Below, one piece after another: positions 4,557-45,256 of a stretch of DNA of 64,000 bases (the stretch's first letter is position 1; each line of letters opens with the position of its first letter). The notes under the pieces were generated by a model, which worked only from the letters and a program-made list of their open reading frames with translations, ran no database searches and was not told where the DNA came from. Location: NCBI RefSeq assembly GCF_002834295.1, contig NZ_PISP01000003.1:434001-498000 (forward strand), read 5' to 3'. The stretch comes from Rhodohalobacter barkolensis (GTDB lineage Bacteria > Bacteroidota > Rhodothermia > Balneolales > Balneolaceae). The position numbers and the translations under genes were made by a program.

Positions 4557-5390
4557 AGTTCCAGGAAAGCTTGTATTTGATGTCATTTCCCCTCCTTTCC
4601 AAGGAGGGCGCAGGAGTGGTTGAAGATTTCTGAAAAGAAATACACCATTATTATTTAGAACAATGACCCGGTTAAAAACACACGATGATATTCATTGATA
4701 GACAAATTCAATATTCCCAACAAAATAAGCCCTTCATATTGCGTACCTGACGGCACGCTTTTTAAAATGTTTCCTCATTTTATCTACCTATGTTTTGTCC
4801 CTAAGGGACAAGTTTTTAACACATAGGAAGAACTCAAAGTTTTTTTTGATTACGAAGGATTTGGTAACCATCCCATTGGGGACGGAATATGGGAAGAGCT
4901 CAAAAACCCAACACAATTCTTCATTCCGTAATGGATCCAGAAACTCGTATTGCGTACCTAAAGGCACGCTATTTTCAGATGACTCCTCTCTATTTCTACT
5001 ACCCATGTTTAGTCCCTACGGGACAAAGTTAAATTTAGATATCGAATGATCAGTCACATTTTTTATACCAAATCAGTGGGTTGAACACCACTTTAGTGCC
5101 GTCTTTCATAGTACAATGAATCCCGTATTCTCAAGAAATCCTTTCTTAGGATCGTCCCATTTGGGACGAAATATGGGTAGATTCCAAAAACCCAACACAA
5201 TTCCCCGTGCCGTTAGGTACGGAATAAGAAAGGCCGCAGAACGTTGAGCAGATGTTCATTCCTTCAGGAATTCACATACGTTCCGCGGCCTTGAGAAAAA
5301 ATCTTTTAACCGCTCCAAGTGGTTAGACGGATTATTCTTGATTTTTTGTCTATCCGTCTGACCGACTGTAGCGGTCTGACGGGGATTTAT
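4557..5390. repeat. intergenic cluster of REP-like palindromes
   Basis: No credible gene is present. A C-rich half-repeat (CCCCTCC, then AAGGAGGG) lies at about 4585-4625. Several palindromes of one family follow in both orientations. GTCCC-TAA-GGGAC near 4797 and GTCCC-TAC-GGGAC near 5012 follow CTACC(C/T)ATGTTT. The inverted form GTCCCATTTGGGAC then GAAATATGGGTAG sits at 5154-5181. Companion blocks GCGTACC-N-GGCACGC recur near 4741 and 4950. At 5229-5291 a long stem (AAGGCCGC with GCGGCCTT, and GAACGT with ACGTTC) encloses a smaller ATTCC/GGAAT hairpin. Short reading frames here are made of repeat sequence and were not called. Confidence 0.75.
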
Positions 5391-7531: not shown

Positions 7532-9325
7532 TTAAAAGAAGGTGTAGTAAAAGAACAGTACCGATACCACCAGAAACACAATCGTCATTCCGCCTCCGGC
7601 TTTGAAGTAGTCTTTGGTTTTATATCCTCCGGCCGACATCATCAAAGCATTTACCTGATGCGTTGGCAGCACAAATGAGTTACCGGCATTAACAGCGGCA
7701 AGCAGTACCAATGGACGCGGATCCACACCGGCAAGGGCGCCAATGCCTACTACCAGCGGTGCCAATACCACCACGGCTCCTACATTCGACATCACCAGAG
7801 AAAATCCGGTTGAAAGTATTCCAACGGTAAACAGCAGCACCAACAGATGACTTCCCTCAATAACGCTCATTACATTTTCTGCCAGAAACTGGGCCGTGCC
7901 GCTGTTTTGCATGGCTGTACCAAGCGGAATCAAACCGACCAGCAGAAATACCACTTTCCACTCTATGGATTTGTATGCCTGCTGAATGGACATGACATTG
8001 GTCAGAACCATCATCACGGCGCCGGTCAGAAATGCGATAGAGATGGAAAATCCACTCATTGCCAATACAATAGCCAGCAGAAAACTTCCGGCGGCCTGCC
8101 AAGTTTTAGAAGGGTCCTTCATCTCGGCAGAAATCGGTGTAGTCACTATAAACGGATCACTGCTCTGTAGTTCTTTAATATTTTTCCATGTTCCGTATAT
8201 GATGAATGTGTCGCCTGCCTTAATTTTATGGTCTGAAAAATCATCATCAACGTTTTCCCCCTGGCTGAACAACATAATCGGCTCTACAGCATATCGCTTT
8301 CTCATAGAGAATTCCCGAATCGTTTGACCGACCAAATCTGAACGCGGCGGAACAATTACTTCCACAAATCCGGATTCTTCGGGATCTTCAATACTTTCAA
8401 AAATAATGTGATCTTCTGTTGCGCTTAATTTCTTGTCATCCGTAAAACGGTTCACATCATCCACTTCACCATAAAGCGCAACTACCTGTCCCTCTTTTAA
8501 AACCGTTTCGCGCCAGGGAGAGTACTGTGTATTATTTCCATCACGGAGAGCCAACAGGTTGATATTGTAATCGCTCCATATCCCACTCTGTTCTATCGTT
8601 TTTCCGGTCAGTTCGCAGTTGTTTTCAACCCGGAAATATCGGATATCCTTATTCAGGCTAAACGCCTCTATGATCTTCTCCTGTTCTGTTAATTTAGACT
8701 CGCCTTCAGTGCTCTCCTGAGGAAGAAAATATTTACCCAGCAGCACAAAAAAGAGAACAGCCGCAACCAAAAGCGCGATTCCCACCGGGGTTACTGCAAA
8801 CAGACCGTATGGATCCAGGTCTGCATTTGCCAATAGGTCGTTTGTCAAAATCAGGTGACCGGATCCTACCATGGTGAGCGTTCCACCAATAATCGCAGCG
8901 AAACCGATCGGCATGATCAGCACAGATGCTGATATTTTTGTTCGGCGGGAAATATCCATGATGCTGGGCAGGAACAGTGCCGCAGCTCCGATGTTCTGAA
9001 TCACTCCCGAGAGTGTTCCGACAGACAGCGAGAGCGAACCCAGAATGGATGATTTATTCGAACCAACCCGCTTCAAAAGCCATTTCGAAAATCGGGACAT
9101 CATGCCCGTTTTGGCCATTCCCTCACCAAGTATCATAACCGCAATCATTGCCACAACGGCATTACTCGAAAACCCTGCCAGCGCCTCATTTGTTGTTAAA
9201 ATCCCGGTCCAGCTGAGCGCCAGCATGGTAATGAGTGCAGTAACATCAATCCGTATAATTTCCGTAACCAGCATGAAGATGGTAAAGGCCATGATGGTCA
9301 ACACAATAATAATCTCTGTCTCCAT
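7532..9325 (-). CDS. SLC13 (DASS) family transporter with two TrkA-C domains
   Basis: A 597-residue inner-membrane transporter. N-terminal transmembrane segments (residues 1-200) are followed by a cytosolic region of about 180 residues with two RCK/TrkA-C-type domains (LTGKTIEQSGIW... and LVGQTIREFSMRKRY...). More transmembrane segments follow, ending with the SLC13 block GNSFVLPTHQVNALMM. Members with this layout import or export sulfate, and in sulfide-oxidising operons are suspected sulfite/sulfate exporters. It lies 51 bp downstream of a SulP permease gene on the same strand. The family is clear; the direction and substrate are inferred. Confidence 0.87.
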   Translation of the reverse strand: METEIIIVLTIMAFTIFMLVTEIIRIDVTALITMLALSWTGILTTNEALAGFSSNAVVAMIAVMILGEGMAKTGMMSRFSKWLLKRVGSNKSSILGSLSLSVGTLSGVIQNIGAAALFLPSIMDISRRTKISASVLIMPIGFAAIIGGTLTMVGSGHLILTNDLLANADLDPYGLFAVTPVGIALLVAAVLFFVLLGKYFLPQESTEGESKLTEQEKIIEAFSLNKDIRYFRVENNCELTGKTIEQSGIWSDYNINLLALRDGNNTQYSPWRETVLKEGQVVALYGEVDDVNRFTDDKKLSATEDHIIFESIEDPEESGFVEVIVPPRSDLVGQTIREFSMRKRYAVEPIMLFSQGENVDDDFSDHKIKAGDTFIIYGTWKNIKELQSSDPFIVTTPISAEMKDPSKTWQAAGSFLLAIVLAMSGFSISIAFLTGAVMMVLTNVMSIQQAYKSIEWKVVFLLVGLIPLGTAMQNSGTAQFLAENVMSVIEGSHLLVLLFTVGILSTGFSLVMSNVGAVVVLAPLVVGIGALAGVDPRPLVLLAAVNAGNSFVLPTHQVNALMMSAGGYKTKDYFKAGGGMTIVFLVVSVLFFYYTFF

Positions 9326-25755: not shown

Positions 25756-26537
25756 CCACGCCCCGAATTGCCCGGTTCGGGTGATGAATACTCTATAAGG
25801 TGGCTATTTTCAAAACTTATTTTGCTGGGAACCGCCTCATCATTGATTAACGCTTCAAGCAACTCCCTCTGTTCGACGGCGGATAGGTTTCAGGCTAAAT
25901 ATCTACCCATGTTTCATCCCGATGGGATGATGGACTCATAACATTAAAGAGATGGTATTTTAAAACGTGCCGTGAATCGCCCGACTCGGGGTTGAGATAT
26001 AATCTGATAATACATTTAAATTTATATCGCCTCATCTTTGAATAGCGTCTCAAGAAAGTCTTTCTGTTCGGCAACTATATATGGTTAAAGCTATTCTCTA
26101 CCCATGTTTAATCCATGCGAGATGAATGGTGGTGGCTGAGACATGGTATCTATATAAGGAGCACTCTTCTGGTTTTTGGTTTACAATATTACGTAAAGAT
26201 TGCTCCCCTCCTTGCGGCGTTCTTTTGCGGCGGAGGGGCAGGGGGGTGGGTCGCCCCTACAGGGCTTTTCATTATTTTATCCTTGAGATACCCACCATTG
26301 AAATGGTGGGCTAAAATGTGAACTCATGGCTACGCCATTTGTAGAGTATATAAGATCAAATAATGCATAAATAAGCTGAGAATAGACAGACTATAAATCC
26401 TAAACCCCGTAGGGGTGAAACACTCATAGCCCGGGGTTTCAACCCCGGGTTAGAAATGTACCTCAAAATTGATTCCGCCGAACAGAGAGCGTTGTTCGAA
26501 GTTTATGGAATTTTGAGGCGGTTATACTCAGCGTTGA
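25756..26537. repeat. gene-free repeat array: inverted ACCGCC modules and composite unit R1
   Basis: No gene is seen. Two inverted copies of a module with ends CCGCC and GGCGG (about 25830-25883 and 26028-26078) flank a CTACCCATGTTT repeat with hairpin TCATCCC-GATGGGATGA at 25903-25930. From 26251 a composite unit follows in the order GCCCCTACAGGGC, CCCACCATT/AATGGTGGG (26291-26310), TACGCCATT, ACCCCGTAGGGGT (26404), CCCGGGGTTTCAACCCCGGG (26430) and the CCGCCGAAC...GAGGCGG module (26475-26521). The same order recurs at 28052 and 28574. Confidence 0.75.
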
Positions 26538-26614
26538 TAGATATGGTATTTTTATAAGTCTCTCTTTATAGCTATTTAGTTACAGGCTTGAAGAGTAAAA
26601 ATACCATGCCTGAT
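26538..26614. mobile_element. MITE-like element, copy 1 (short)
   Basis: Ends with ATATGGTATTTTTATAAG and AAAAATACCATGCCTG are near-perfect inverted repeats 77 bp apart. It is one of four copies in this window (26538, 28411, 28871, 39963). The interior is A/T-rich and codes for nothing. Confidence 0.65.
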
Positions 26615-26692
26615 TAACATAAAAATCAAAGAGATAGGCGCCCCGTTGCACAGGTTGTAGCTCAGAGCATCAAACTTTCCTTCAATCCAATA

Positions 26693-27043
26693 CTAAAATT
26701 TCATGATATTTTTCCGGGTCATACTCATAAGCTTTTCGAAATGTGTCAATACAAATAGAATAAACCCAACCTGGAAAACCAACAAGATTGTATCTGTGTA
26801 TTTTGGTGAAACCTGAAATTCCATCTGCGGAATCAAGCTCATCAGAACAATGCCACTGACTATGCCAACGATAAAAAAGAACCATGAAAAGGCCACTCCT
26901 CTTTGATAATCTTCCTGAATTGCCTTTTTTTCCAACTCAAGGCGTTCAATATTCAGCATCACGTCATCTTCAATATCGGGAAAAGGTAAATTCTCCTCTC
27001 CGTGCGATAACAACTCTTTAAACAGTTTATCCTCTTCCGTCAT
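26693..27043 (-). CDS. two-span membrane protein downstream of the ECF sigma factor (anti-sigma candidate)
   Basis: About 116 residues from ATG 27043, which starts 2 bases after the sigma stop; a GTG overlapping the sigma stop by one base (27046) is an alternative. The cytosolic N-terminal 50 residues are acidic (MTEEDKLFKELLSHGEENLP). Two transmembrane helices (AFSWFFFIVGIVSGIVLMSL and DTILLVFQVGFILFVLTHF) follow. Coupling to the sigma gene makes it a candidate membrane anti-sigma factor, although no zinc-binding ZAS motif is visible. Confidence 0.75.
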   Translation of the reverse strand: MTEEDKLFKELLSHGEENLPFPDIEDDVMLNIERLELEKKAIQEDYQRGVAFSWFFFIVGIVSGIVLMSLIPQMEFQVSPKYTDTILLVFQVGFILFVLTHFEKLMSMTRKNIMKF

Positions 27044-27045
27044 CA

Positions 27046-27600
27046 CTACACCTCTTCCGGTTTCAGGTTGAAATTTTTGGATAGTTTTTCTCTCATGTTA
27101 TTCCTTGCTCTGTGTAAAATTACCTTTGTATTTGAATTGCTCCAGCCGGTTATTTCGCAAACTTCTTTGATGCTGTACTCATACAGATAAAATAACCTCA
27201 GAGCGAGGCTTTCATCAGGCTTCATCGCTTTTAAAACGGTTTGAATACAGTGCCTCTTGTGTTGATCGTCTATAGCTTGGTGTACTGAATTATTTGAACC
27301 ATCAATATGCTGTTCTTCATTGAAGGGATGGTTTCTATCCGGTTTTCGGCTGCGCAACAGCTGATAAGATTCATTGACAACTATTCGATGAAACCAGGTA
27401 TTAAATGCAGCCTCTTTTCTAAACTCAGCAAGACCTTCATATGCATTAATAAAAGATTTTTGAACCACCTCTTTTGCCGCATACTCCTCCTTCACGATCG
27501 ATATCGCCAGGTTATAAGCATCCTCCTTATACTCCCTGATGATAAATCGAAAGGCCTCTTTGTCACCATTTAAAACTCGTTCTATGTAACGATCCGGCAT
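27046..27600 (-). CDS. ECF RNA polymerase sigma factor
   Basis: A 184-residue sigma-70 family protein with region 2 (RFIIREYKEDAYNLAISIVK, then EEYAAKEVVQKSFINAY and FNTWFHRIVVNESYQLLR) and region 4 (LALRLFYLYEYSIKEVCEIT, then GWSNSNTKVILHRARNNMRE). A hydrophilic linker lies between. It is in a three-gene minus-strand unit: a DUF6249-like membrane protein, this sigma factor (7-bp gap), and a membrane protein starting at its stop. This is a typical signal-transducing ECF operon. Confidence 0.92.
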   Translation of the reverse strand: MPDRYIERVLNGDKEAFRFIIREYKEDAYNLAISIVKEEYAAKEVVQKSFINAYEGLAEFRKEAAFNTWFHRIVVNESYQLLRSRKPDRNHPFNEEQHIDGSNNSVHQAIDDQHKRHCIQTVLKAMKPDESLALRLFYLYEYSIKEVCEITGWSNSNTKVILHRARNNMREKLSKNFNLKPEEV

Positions 27601-27607
27601 TAATCAG

Positions 27608-27943
27608 TTATCCGTTATCCTTTTTGCCTACATAATGTGCAATAATCATCCCGATCCCACCAAACAGTAACATCATAATTGGAGGAAATTCACGAAAATC
27701 TGTCATTTCATTTATTGTGATTCCAATAATCAGACCAACTGCTATTGCTGTTATCAAAATGCCGACCTTTAGCCACGGAAAGCGGAATGAGAAACTCCAG
27801 CCATTTTTTTGTTCAGGTACTTCCTGTCCTTTTTCAATCAGCAACATACGCTCTTTTTCACGCGATTTATGGGAAAAATACCAAGCCAGAAAACCGGCGG
27901 TTAAGAATGCCAGAAAAATGATCGTAAATACAATTTGGTTCAT
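27608..27943 (-). CDS. DUF6249-like membrane protein, first gene of the sigma operon
   Basis: A 111-residue protein. A signal-anchor helix (IVFTIIFLAFLTAGFLAWYF), a basic linker with the block KERMLLIEKGQEVPE, and two further spans (LKVGILITAIAVGLIIGITI, PPIMMLLFGGIGMIIAHYVG) are visible. This layout and the ERMLLIEKG motif are common to small Bacteroidota proteins next to ECF sigma genes. It could sense envelope state or act with the downstream anti-sigma candidate. Confidence 0.75.
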   Translation of the reverse strand: MNQIVFTIIFLAFLTAGFLAWYFSHKSREKERMLLIEKGQEVPEQKNGWSFSFRFPWLKVGILITAIAVGLIIGITINEMTDFREFPPIMMLLFGGIGMIIAHYVGKKDNG

Positions 27944-28051
27944 AATATTTGTTGCTCTTGGTTCTAGTTACGGTTCAACTGTTTGATGCACAAACCTCTC
28001 AAAAGGTTACAAATAAATTGAAATTTTTGATGTACAGAATGTAAAAGTGGC

Positions 28052-28410
28052 TCGCCCCTTCAGGGCTTTCGATTTTTTATCTCTAGCAGACCCACCATTA
28101 AAATGGTGGGCTAAAATGTATGGCCATGGCTACGCCATTTTTGTTAAAACGATTTGACCTCACACCGTTCTGCTGCTTTCCACTTAATTGAAGCAGTACA
28201 AATCCACGATTTAAGCCAAAAAATCACCAATCTTGCAAACATCTTTTCAAATAATCGGTGGTAATTCAATCTCAAACCCCGTAGGGGTGTCCCAAACATA
28301 GCCCGGGGTTTCAACCCCGGGGAAGAATGCAGACCAAAATTAATACCGCCGAACAAAGAGAGTTGCTTGAAGTATTTAGCAGCTTTGAGGCGGTTATACT
28401 CAACATTGGT
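28052..28410. repeat. composite repeat unit R2
   Basis: Same order of modules as R1: GCCCCTTCAGGGC, CCCACCATTAAAATGGTGGG, TACGCCATT, ACCCCGTAGGGGT, CCCGGGGTTTCAACCCCGGG, and CCGCCGAAC...GAGGCGG (ends about 28394). No gene is supported. The minus-strand frame 28144-28416 is repeat sequence in translation. Confidence 0.75.
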
Positions 28411-28512
28411 AGACATGGTATTTTTTTGAATGAGTATAGTTTTTTAATCGTATCCCAGTCTTAGCGTGGTTTAAAACTTTGGCAGGTTCTGTAAGCAAAA
28501 ATACTATGTCTG
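28411..28512. mobile_element. MITE-like element, copy 2
   Basis: Ends AGACATGGTATTTTTTT and AAAATACTATGTCTG are inverted relatives of those at 39963-40062; about 102 bp. It follows directly after the GAGGCGG module, as in R1 and R3. It holds the inner block CAGGTTCTGT shared with copy 3 (CAGGTCCTGT). Confidence 0.65.
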
Positions 28513-28573
28513 ATTTACTTCAAAATTTGATGTTCATTCTTCAACAATCCATTGCCGCACCTAAATATTAGTT

Positions 28574-28870
28574 TCGCCCCTTCAGGGCTTTCATTTTACT
28601 TTACTGATTCATACCCACCATTGAAATGGTGGGCTATAATGTATGGCCATTGCTACGCCATTCTTCCTGTATAGACAAATAAATTTTACTACCGTGATCA
28701 ACTCACCACGCCAAACTCTGTGGACAACTCGCCCCCAACCCCGTAGGGGTGAAACACTCATAGCCCGGGGTTTCAACCCCGGGTAAAGATTTACAGCAAC
28801 ATTTTTACCGCCGAACAAAGAGAGTTGCTCGAAGTATTTGCAGTTTTGAGGCGGTTTTGCGCTGTGCAAA
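28574..28870. repeat. composite repeat unit R3
   Basis: Third copy of the module order: GCCCCTTCAGGGC, CCCACCATTGAAATGGTGGG, TACGCCATT, ACCCCGTAGGGGT, CCCGGGGTTTCAACCCCGGG, CCGCCGAAC...GAGGCGG. The minus-strand frame 28609-28869 translates the same repeat and shares residues such as LSLFGG and PGLKPRAM with the one in R2, which is repeat and not a gene family. Confidence 0.75.
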
Positions 28871-28972
28871 AGACATGCTATTCTTTTAAAACATCCGCTT
28901 TTCTCTTTATCTATACCTTATAATCGATTGTTTAATTTGGCAGGTCCTGTGAATAAAAATACCATGTCTGAT
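28871..28972. mobile_element. MITE-like element, copy 3
   Basis: Ends AGACATGCTATTCTTTT and AAAAATACCATGTCTG, about 102 bp apart, follow unit R3. The left end is more diverged than in copy 4. Confidence 0.6.
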
Positions 28973-39962: not shown

Positions 39963-40062
39963 AGACATGGTATTTTTATAAGTCTCCCAACCAAAGATTT
40001 AAAGAACAGCAGGCTTAAAGACTACATAATAAACTGGAAACCAAACAGAAATACCATGTCTA
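39963..40062. mobile_element. MITE-like element, copy 4 (stand-alone)
   Basis: AGACATGGTATTTTTATAAG at the left and GAAATACCATGTCTA at the right are inverted repeats 100 bp apart, the cleanest copy in the window. Unlike the other three it is not attached to a composite unit, so it is probably the mobile part. It lies between the convergent M24 and UspA genes. Confidence 0.7.
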
Positions 40063-44338: not shown

Positions 44339-44546
44339 ATTAAACCTCCAAGGGCTTCGGGATCAATATTAACAAACGAATAAAAGTTAAATGGGATAAT
44401 ATCTATCCTGAAAGGATAGTATATGAATAACCCTGGGTGACGCTTGCGAACCCAGGGTAAACAGCGAATATAAAATCACAACCCTGAAAGGGTTGAACTA
44501 AAATCACTGATCAGGCATATTAGTATTTAAAATAATGGAGGGATTT
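44339..44546. repeat. hairpins upstream of the REP-associated transposase
   Basis: Three stem-loops occur in tandem: CTATCCTGAAAGGATAG (44403-44419), ACCCTGGGT/ACCCAGGGT with a GACGCTTGCGA-type loop (44430-44458), and AACCCTGAAAGGGTT (44480-44494). They resemble REP ends recognised by the Y1 transposase family. Confidence 0.65.
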
Positions 44547-44993: not shown

Positions 44994-45256
44994 AATTTGT
45001 CATTAAACCCCTTCAGGGTTTTCAACTCTTTTTTGATGACTTTTACCACGGGTTAAAACCCGTGGCTATTCACATAAAACCCCATTCGGGGTTTATTAAT
45101 CCAAAAATGTAACATAGTCTAACCCCAACCTTCCAAGGGTTCCGAACCCTTGGAGGGTTTTTGACTATGAAATAGGTAAAATTTGTAAAAAGTGTGCTTC
45201 CAACGCGATTCTTTAGGATATTGCGGGTCGAAATCCAAAACCAATAAGTTGACTCT
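44994..45256. repeat. hairpins downstream of the transposase
   Basis: AACCCCTTCAGGGTT (45005-45020), CCACGGGTT/AACCCGTGG (45046-45065), AAACCCC/GGGGTTT (45077-45094), and AACCTTCCAAGGGTT/AACCCTTGGAGGGTT (45127-45160). The first is the inverse of the AACCCTGAAAGGGTT upstream of the gene, so transposase and hairpins could be one unit. Confidence 0.65.

Follow-up and report, generated by a model that had tools for sequence, protein, structure and literature searches.

Enterobacterial bacterial interspersed mosaic elements (BIMEs) carry additional motifs in a fixed order. BIMEs and repetitive extragenic palindromes (REPs) are described as non-autonomous elements of REP-associated tyrosine transposases (RAYTs), occurring as inverted REPs, with regular spacing, in arrays and as doublets (Nunvar 2010, PMC2817692, in its accessible part). 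Here we analyse a 64,000-nucleotide stretch of the Rhodohalobacter barkolensis genome (contig NZ_PISP01000003.1, positions 434,001 to 498,000; hereafter the window), which contains three composite repeat units, R1 to R3, and two inverted copies of one of their modules. We consider it likely that these arrays are mosaics of the REP/BIME type, made of non-autonomous single-stranded-DNA elements of TnpA_Y1-type transposases that carry the motif Y---Q--HH, and shaped by local block duplication and by recombination between direct repeats.

Among Y1 (HuH) transposases, the available text of Quentin 2018 (PMC6006769) has subclass 1.2 marked by Y---Q--HH, mostly found in Cyanobacteria and Bacteroidetes and generally without the typical terminal IS200 structures; typical REPs are attributed there to five subclasses, and atypical structures to subclass 2.6 and class 3. 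In contrast to this generally hairpin-less description, the Y---Q--HH genes analysed here are flanked by hairpins. The motif Acido-Lenti-1 (Rfam family RF01687) is associated with group II introns. It was presented as probably an RNA, occurring in Acidobacteria and Lentisphaerae (Weinberg 2010, PMC2864571, as far as that source is accessible), and the accessible portion of a 2026 paper proposes that these 'ncRNAs' may help regulate protease genes in Tannerella. No link joining RF01687, subclass 1.2 Y1 genes and REPs was found in the consulted parts of the open-licence PubMed Central literature, and the consulted passages of papers that name Acido-Lenti-1 connect it to neither a REP nor a transposase. 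Two links look new: the match of the hairpin pair of our elements to RF01687, and the clusters of small, large and again small hairpins that flank Y---Q--HH Y1 genes.

Each composite unit pairs two REP-like elements

A sequence-only reading of the window had described six modules in fixed order in each unit, closed by an element resembling a miniature inverted-repeat transposable element (MITE). Both observations were borne out in R1 (26253-26611), R2 (28054-28511) and R3 (28576-28969), each of which closes, after module 6, with a pair of terminal inverted repeats (TIRs). The unit length of 300-360 bp given in that reading did not hold: with the terminal element, R1, R2 and R3 measure 359, 458 and 394 bp, and up to the end of module 6 they measure 271, 342 and 281 bp. 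Judged by 100 shuffles of the window, 0.00 matches are expected both for module 2 and for modules 4+5, each of which has three, and 0.12 for the start of module 6, which has five; one of these five, at 8934, lies outside any array.

Modules 2+3, on the plus strand, match RF01687 with 34.6, 32.1 and 25.9 bits in R1, R2 and R3, respectively, and modules 5+4, on the minus strand, with 36.9, 36.2 and 36.9 bits, in each case over the full 46 positions. Since both pairs of modules fit one covariance model, each unit consists of two elements of the same kind, placed head to head. The six modules reduce to a pair of REP-like elements and are not independent parts, and a small palindrome (P1) and the 50-nt module 6 (M6) are their outer tails: modules 1-3 form an element on the minus strand with P1 as its tail, and modules 4-6 one on the plus strand with M6 as its tail. 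In each element a small hairpin (P2, the loop of which is frequently GTA or GAA) is followed after about 10 nt by TAG and a large hairpin (HP), and the tail comes about 22 nt further on. The two inverted CCGCC copies of M6 that had been noted were confirmed (Table 1), the second being diverged; neither is bare, since upstream of each, on the minus strand, lie ACATGGGTAGA and a small hairpin or what is left of one.

Like BIMEs and REPINs, R1-R3 are inverted REP pairs with extra motifs in a fixed order, and the gap between convergent M6 modules is regular. An extra small hairpin on each side of the REP, a TAG foot and M6, 50 nt long, as a tail set R1-R3 apart from those systems, as does the head-to-head orientation. 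R1-R3 are also larger than enterobacterial BIMEs. With REPtrons, the systems of a RAYT (TnpAREP) and its REPs, the resemblance lies in an HuH Y1 gene flanked by hairpins with similar elements elsewhere in the genome; a difference is that no credible M6 was found near any of 47 Y1 loci. The foot directly 5' of the hairpin, GTAG or GTGG in REPtrons, is TAG or TAA in 84 of 101 M6 copies here. RF01687 shares the order of HP, CTA, about 10 nt and a small hairpin, and is matched over its whole length, but what matches it here is a dispersed, transposase-linked DNA repeat of Bacteroidota.

M6 units across the genome and beyond

A model built from 27 copies of M6 identified at least 101 copies in the 3.6-Mb R. 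barkolensis genome (E <= 0.1), which is a lower bound because the best 150 of 1940 candidates were scored. The 84 copies with a TAG- or TAA-anchored HP upstream compare with 22.5 in Markov-shuffled sequence and 19 in a real downstream control, and the 64 copies with both HP and P2 upstream compare with 3.1 and 3, respectively. The gap between HP and M6 is 21-23 nt in 71 of the 84, and that between P2 and TAG is 8-11 nt in 58 of the 64. These units vary considerably (31 distinct HP arms and 40 distinct P2 sequences), with pairing preserved: in 74 of 99 distinct units the unit's own HP arms pair with each other, compared with a mean of 35 and a maximum of 46 when arms were dealt among units (200 deals), and pairing is perfect in 47, compared with 12 after dealing. 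Many of the 37 copies that fail the HP test, the P2 test or both show, by eye, a mismatched P2, an inserted hairpin or an HP-less GGGTAG head; GGGTAG or AGGTAG heads without HP occur in seven of the 101.

M6 itself has a 5-bp outer stem around a loop that is conserved in sequence. In an alignment (A2) that had been fitted to the stem tested, 24 double-changed cells were counted, with 8.3 expected, a number reached in none of 500 shuffles; the number of paired cells and the covariation score also exceed all 500, making three of five measures in total, and the remaining two, pairs with double changes (105/500) and further pair types (110/500), are not unusual. An inner pairing within M6 was rejected, as the outer stem alone stands out and column pair 1-55 ranks top by both measures. 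M6 as a coding sequence (a frame AEQRxxFE... is present in some copies) is opposed, by eye, by lengths of 48, 49 and 50 and by in-frame stops. An attC/integron reading of the units was dropped because they occur in both orientations, no search aimed at an integrase having been made.

The M6 copies fall into 25 clusters on five contigs, 11 of which are single copies. Among the 55 neighbours within 1 kb, a tandem arrangement is the commonest (25), followed by a divergent (17) and a convergent one (13); convergent neighbours are separated by 72 to 121 nt, and by 87-95 nt in ten of the 13. One array (C1:134.9-153.7 kb) contains 25 copies in mostly alternating orientation, and another (C1:990.7-1002.4 kb) 11 copies in a single orientation. 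Further repeats of unassigned kind lie between the 25 units of the first of these, which spans about 19 kb (L116, C1:134400-154300).

With stricter filters and across 58 genomes, M6 was found in R. barkolensis (91 copies) and in two sister species, G009 (34 copies; marked 9% contaminated) and G019, probably R. halophilus (17 copies; 97% complete). No copy was found in a further 25 genomes from the genus, seven from the family and 23 from the order, some of these genomes being incomplete. The FN3K protein likewise groups these three genomes, the sisters being 83 and 82% identical to R. barkolensis and the next 72%. Because M6 was found only in the three closest genomes, its distribution points to a recent or clade-bound family. 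An exact-pattern scan of 84,980 species genomes, with a pattern that recovers 40 of the 101 R. barkolensis copies and a set that possibly did not include the window's own records, gave 23 stretches: ten in Rhodohalobacter halophilus JZ3C29, ten in one brine metagenome-assembled genome, and one each in Elioraea, Paenibacillus and Mycobacterium, which appear to be chance matches. On contigs that could be compared whole, the M6 positions of G019 and G009 coincide, to a few bases, with those in the JZ3C29 records (L186) and in the brine genome, labelled Chitinophagaceae bacterium T5-Br10_B2g13 (L205). A stricter, different pattern, the sensitivity of which was not measured, had no match in viral contigs.

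Hairpins cluster around Y1 transposase genes

PF01797 has 17 matches in the R. barkolensis genome, including one in the window (Table 1), and the flanks of ten of its Y1 genes contain 58 small and 24 large hairpins, compared with 4.4 and 0.84 in shuffles. Extending this to 54 Y1 loci from R. barkolensis, its congeners and four further genomes (G043, G108, G151 and G073), we obtained 33 usable distinct genes with Y---Q--HH, which are assigned to subclass 1.2 by this motif and not by a tree, and four of which had been picked for nearby RF01687; the other 21 loci comprise 17 not classified, one duplicate, one with short flanks and two of a Y---NP kind. In the 66 near windows of the 33 genes we counted 220 small hairpins, compared with 19.3 in shuffled sequence, and 100 large ones, compared with 4.5, an 11- to 22-fold excess; 50 control windows about 1 kb away from Y1 genes have 24 and 10, respectively. 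Small hairpins are present on both sides of 28 of the 33 genes, and large ones on both sides of 18.

Within 1.5 kb of the Y1 gene at C6:74274 there are four P-CATGGGTAG heads, of the same kind as in the inverted window units. Of the 17 R. barkolensis Y1 loci one other (L046) has such a head, close to its far end, and none occurs in 19 control loci (66,851 bp). The inverted units thus share the head of the C6:74274 copies but carry M6 for P1, so that M6 occupies the place that P1 has in the transposase-linked copies. A single REP of the kind P - AACATGGGTAG - P1, without M6, lies on the minus strand at about 4955-5025 of the window (its head, the third of this kind in the window, is near 4999) and resembles the copies beside C6:74274.

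RF01687 itself has at least 36 matches in R. barkolensis at E <= 1, three of them above the gathering score of 37 bits (among the best 150 of 393 candidates); the six window copies score below it. At E <= 1e-4, and with at most 47 best candidates per genome, RF01687 was found in 19 of 118 genomes of the phylum, one of which has at least 45 copies. In the 18 of these besides R. barkolensis, 13 of 106 matches are within 1 kb of a Y1 gene, compared with 0.28 expected, and these 13 sit at four genes in four genomes. Tandem P-HP-P elements matching RF01687 were seen beside Y1 genes at G108:C30:17800-19900 (L235) and G151:C74:3000-5000 (L236).

Apparent block duplication, and apparent loss of an operon in a sister species

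That the units transpose or duplicate as a block had been proposed from the sequence alone, with a genome-wide comparison using R3 as the suggested check. This blastn search gave 20 matches, and both halves of R3 are combined only in the three window units. The six modules are not always adjacent: elsewhere the three-part P2-HP-M6 unit recurs, together with P1-HP-P2 units without M6. Among eight congeners, both halves of R3 matched at one place only in G009 and G019, at the same locus. Since the six-module block was found only at this locus and its two sister counterparts, duplication is supported, and block transposition, of which no instance was seen, is not. Duplication of the whole block at this locus apparently preceded the separation of the sister species, because in G009 the inverted M6, R1, a sigma-factor operon, R2 and R3 occupy corresponding places. 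In R2 of G009 neither M4, M5 nor the terminal TIR element could be recognised, and the M5 hairpins of G009 have a different sequence.

The operon, which lies between R1 and R2, includes a sigma-70-like factor that is probably of the extracytoplasmic function type, judging by its size and domains. The gene order PTP - sigma operon - FN3K is also present in G003, G006 and G020, and in G024 the sigma gene is directly upstream of FN3K. In G019, a single hybrid unit (L145, G019:C27) stands where R1, the operon, R2 and R3 would be; on the left it is flanked as R1 is, and its right half and the flank beyond correspond to R3. A search of this genome at E <= 1e-15 recovered no sigma orthologue. On the plainest reading, the operon was deleted by recombination between the directly repeated units R1 and R3, so the composite repeats are apparent agents of sigma-factor operon loss in a sister species. 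In the M6-less congener G012, PTP and FN3K are nearly adjacent (about a dozen bases), and thus the operon was lost or absent there without M6 units too.

Proposed mechanism and alternative explanations

The basic element, with an HP that varies in sequence and keeps its pairing, carries the P1 tail in copies flanking Y1 genes and the M6 tail in one small Rhodohalobacter clade, and R1-R3 each combine one of either sort. In the mechanism that we favour, a TnpA_Y1 transposase with Y---Q--HH would recognise the TAG- or GTAG-footed hairpin in single-stranded DNA (the lagging-strand template), and we infer that cleavage and rejoining at this point would spread the elements in trans. Local duplication of inverted neighbours as blocks would follow, and the long direct repeats so formed would recombine. 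More tentatively, and with confidence a little short of even, we propose that Acido-Lenti-1 is a single-stranded-DNA hairpin of subclass 1.2 Y1 transposases, an overlooked RAYT lineage, and not an RNA, and that one clade swapped the distal palindrome for M6 and amplified the result to about 100 copies by modular tail exchange. If so, the orphan Rfam 'sRNA' RF01687 would gain a likely identity, with consequences for annotation, and the REP/RAYT concept would reach a transposase subclass said to be generally hairpin-less.

Several observations weigh against these proposals. The HP parse fails for 17 of 101 M6 copies, and the foot is TAG or TAA, canonical GTAG being seldom seen. No credible M6 was found within about 1.5 kb of 17 R. 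barkolensis and 30 congener Y1 loci (including four of eight in G009 and both in G019), one weak match (E 0.14) being near a Y1 locus (L053); the enzyme moving M6 units may thus be absent. No pair of empty and filled sites was found for a single unit. Two Y---NP genes are hairpin-flanked too (10 small hairpins, compared with 1.2, and two large, compared with 0.2), and the excess of hairpins may therefore not be peculiar to subclass 1.2. With respect to RF01687, 14 of the 18 genomes have no match near a Y1 gene (several contigs of G162 are short), G040 has RF01687 but no Y1 match, and Y1 presence discriminates poorly, at 17 of 18 genomes with RF01687 and 11 of 18 without, the latter taken from 99 and being nearer relatives. 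Y1 flanks yielded one sub-threshold RF01687 match in 16 R. barkolensis loci (L046) and one in 20 congener loci (L256); most of the local hairpin variants thus escape the Rfam model.

The competing explanations account for parts of these data. Old repeats that need no transposase now, and change in size by recombination and slippage only, would agree with R1-R3 being at the same places in G009, with the operon-less R1/R3 hybrid of G019 and with the lack of a credible M6 near a Y1 gene. Nevertheless, 25 separate M6 clusters on five contigs, 11 of them single copies, and the presence of M6 in only three of 28 genus members searched call for dispersal, and we regard this explanation as unlikely. 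Still less probable is that the P2-HP parts are genuine Acido-Lenti-1 small RNAs and the arrays clusters of RNA genes, although all six copies in R1-R3 match RF01687 (25.9-36.9 bits) and Table 1 of Weinberg 2010 (PMC2864571), in the part accessible, marks the motif 'y', for probably RNA. The copies are head to head on both strands, M6 units form arrays of mixed orientation, at least 45 copies occur in one genome, adjacency to Y1 genes is far above chance, and near-palindromic hairpins would fold from either strand.

It is very improbable that the composite moves as a transposon bounded by the MITE-like inverted repeats. Although R1-R3 all close with a TIR element, and TIR-bearing M6 units are also in tandem at C6:82 kb, the TIR pairs seen enclose only about 73-101 bp, with the modules outside, and solo TIR copies exist. 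Even a loose TIR match is present within 90 nt downstream of just nine of 101 M6 copies, compared with 1.6 in shuffles; judged by eye, six of the nine are convincing, namely three in R1-R3 and the other three at C6:82 kb. M6 units can do without the terminal element. No constant target duplication was seen by eye around the TIR copies inspected.

Features of the window and the terminal element

Table 1. Repeat elements and genes of the window (positions are window positions)
Feature	Position	Strand	Details
Inverted M6 module	25830..25879	-	covariance model 59.5 bits; P2 hairpin 25914-25930 and ACATGGGTAGA 25902-25912, both minus strand
Second inverted M6, diverged	26025..26074	-	43.5 bits; head ACATGGGTAGA 26097-26107
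R1 first REP	26253..26339	-	P1 26253-26265, HP 26291-26310, P2 26326-26339; RF01687 26291-26339 (+), 34.6 bits
R1 second REP	26404..26523	+	P2 26404-26416, TAG-HP 26427-26449, M6 26475-26523; RF01687 26403-26449 (-), 36.9 bits
R1 terminal MITE-like element	26539..26611	.	TIR pair
Three-gene operon between R1 and R2	26693..27943	-	DUF6249 protein; sigma-70-like factor; small protein without Pfam match
R2 first REP (P1, HP, P2)	28054..28139	-	RF01687 28091-28139, 32.1 bits
R2 second REP (P2, TAG-HP, M6)	28276..28395	+	RF01687 28275-28321, 36.2 bits
R2 terminal MITE-like element	28411..28511	.	TIR pair
R3 first REP (P1, HP, P2)	28576..28662	-	RF01687 28614-28662, 25.9 bits
R3 second REP (P2, TAG-HP, M6)	28738..28856	+	RF01687 28737-28783, 36.9 bits
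R3 terminal MITE-like element	28871..28969	.	TIR pair
Hairpin triplet upstream of Y1 gene	44405..44494	+	44405-44417, 44430-44458, 44480-44494
TnpA_Y1 gene, 152 aa	44535..44993	+	DHIH ... WQ ... YVKNQEKHH; PF01797 83.5 bits
Hairpin triplet downstream of Y1 gene, order mirrored	45006..45094	+	45006-45020, 45046-45065, 45077-45094

The TIR pair that closes R1-R3 resembles AGACATGGTATTTTT / AAAAATACCATGTCT, each end having 0-2 mismatches. Among 17 TIR matches no inward pair of gene size came to notice, and no search for a transposase of this element was made. Solo copies with no REP seen attached lie at 39963-40061 of the window and at C6:313712-313808, C1:1041870-1041967 and C3:583146. At C6:82000-84000 (L134), some 8 kb away from the C6:74274 Y1 gene, three P2-HP-M6 units follow one another in tandem, and every one of them has a TIR element. 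By eye, the TIR arms co-vary between the copies in L011, L030 and L035 (TTTCT/AGAAA, TCTCT/AGAGA and TGTTT/AAACA), as if the stem, and not the ends alone, were constrained.

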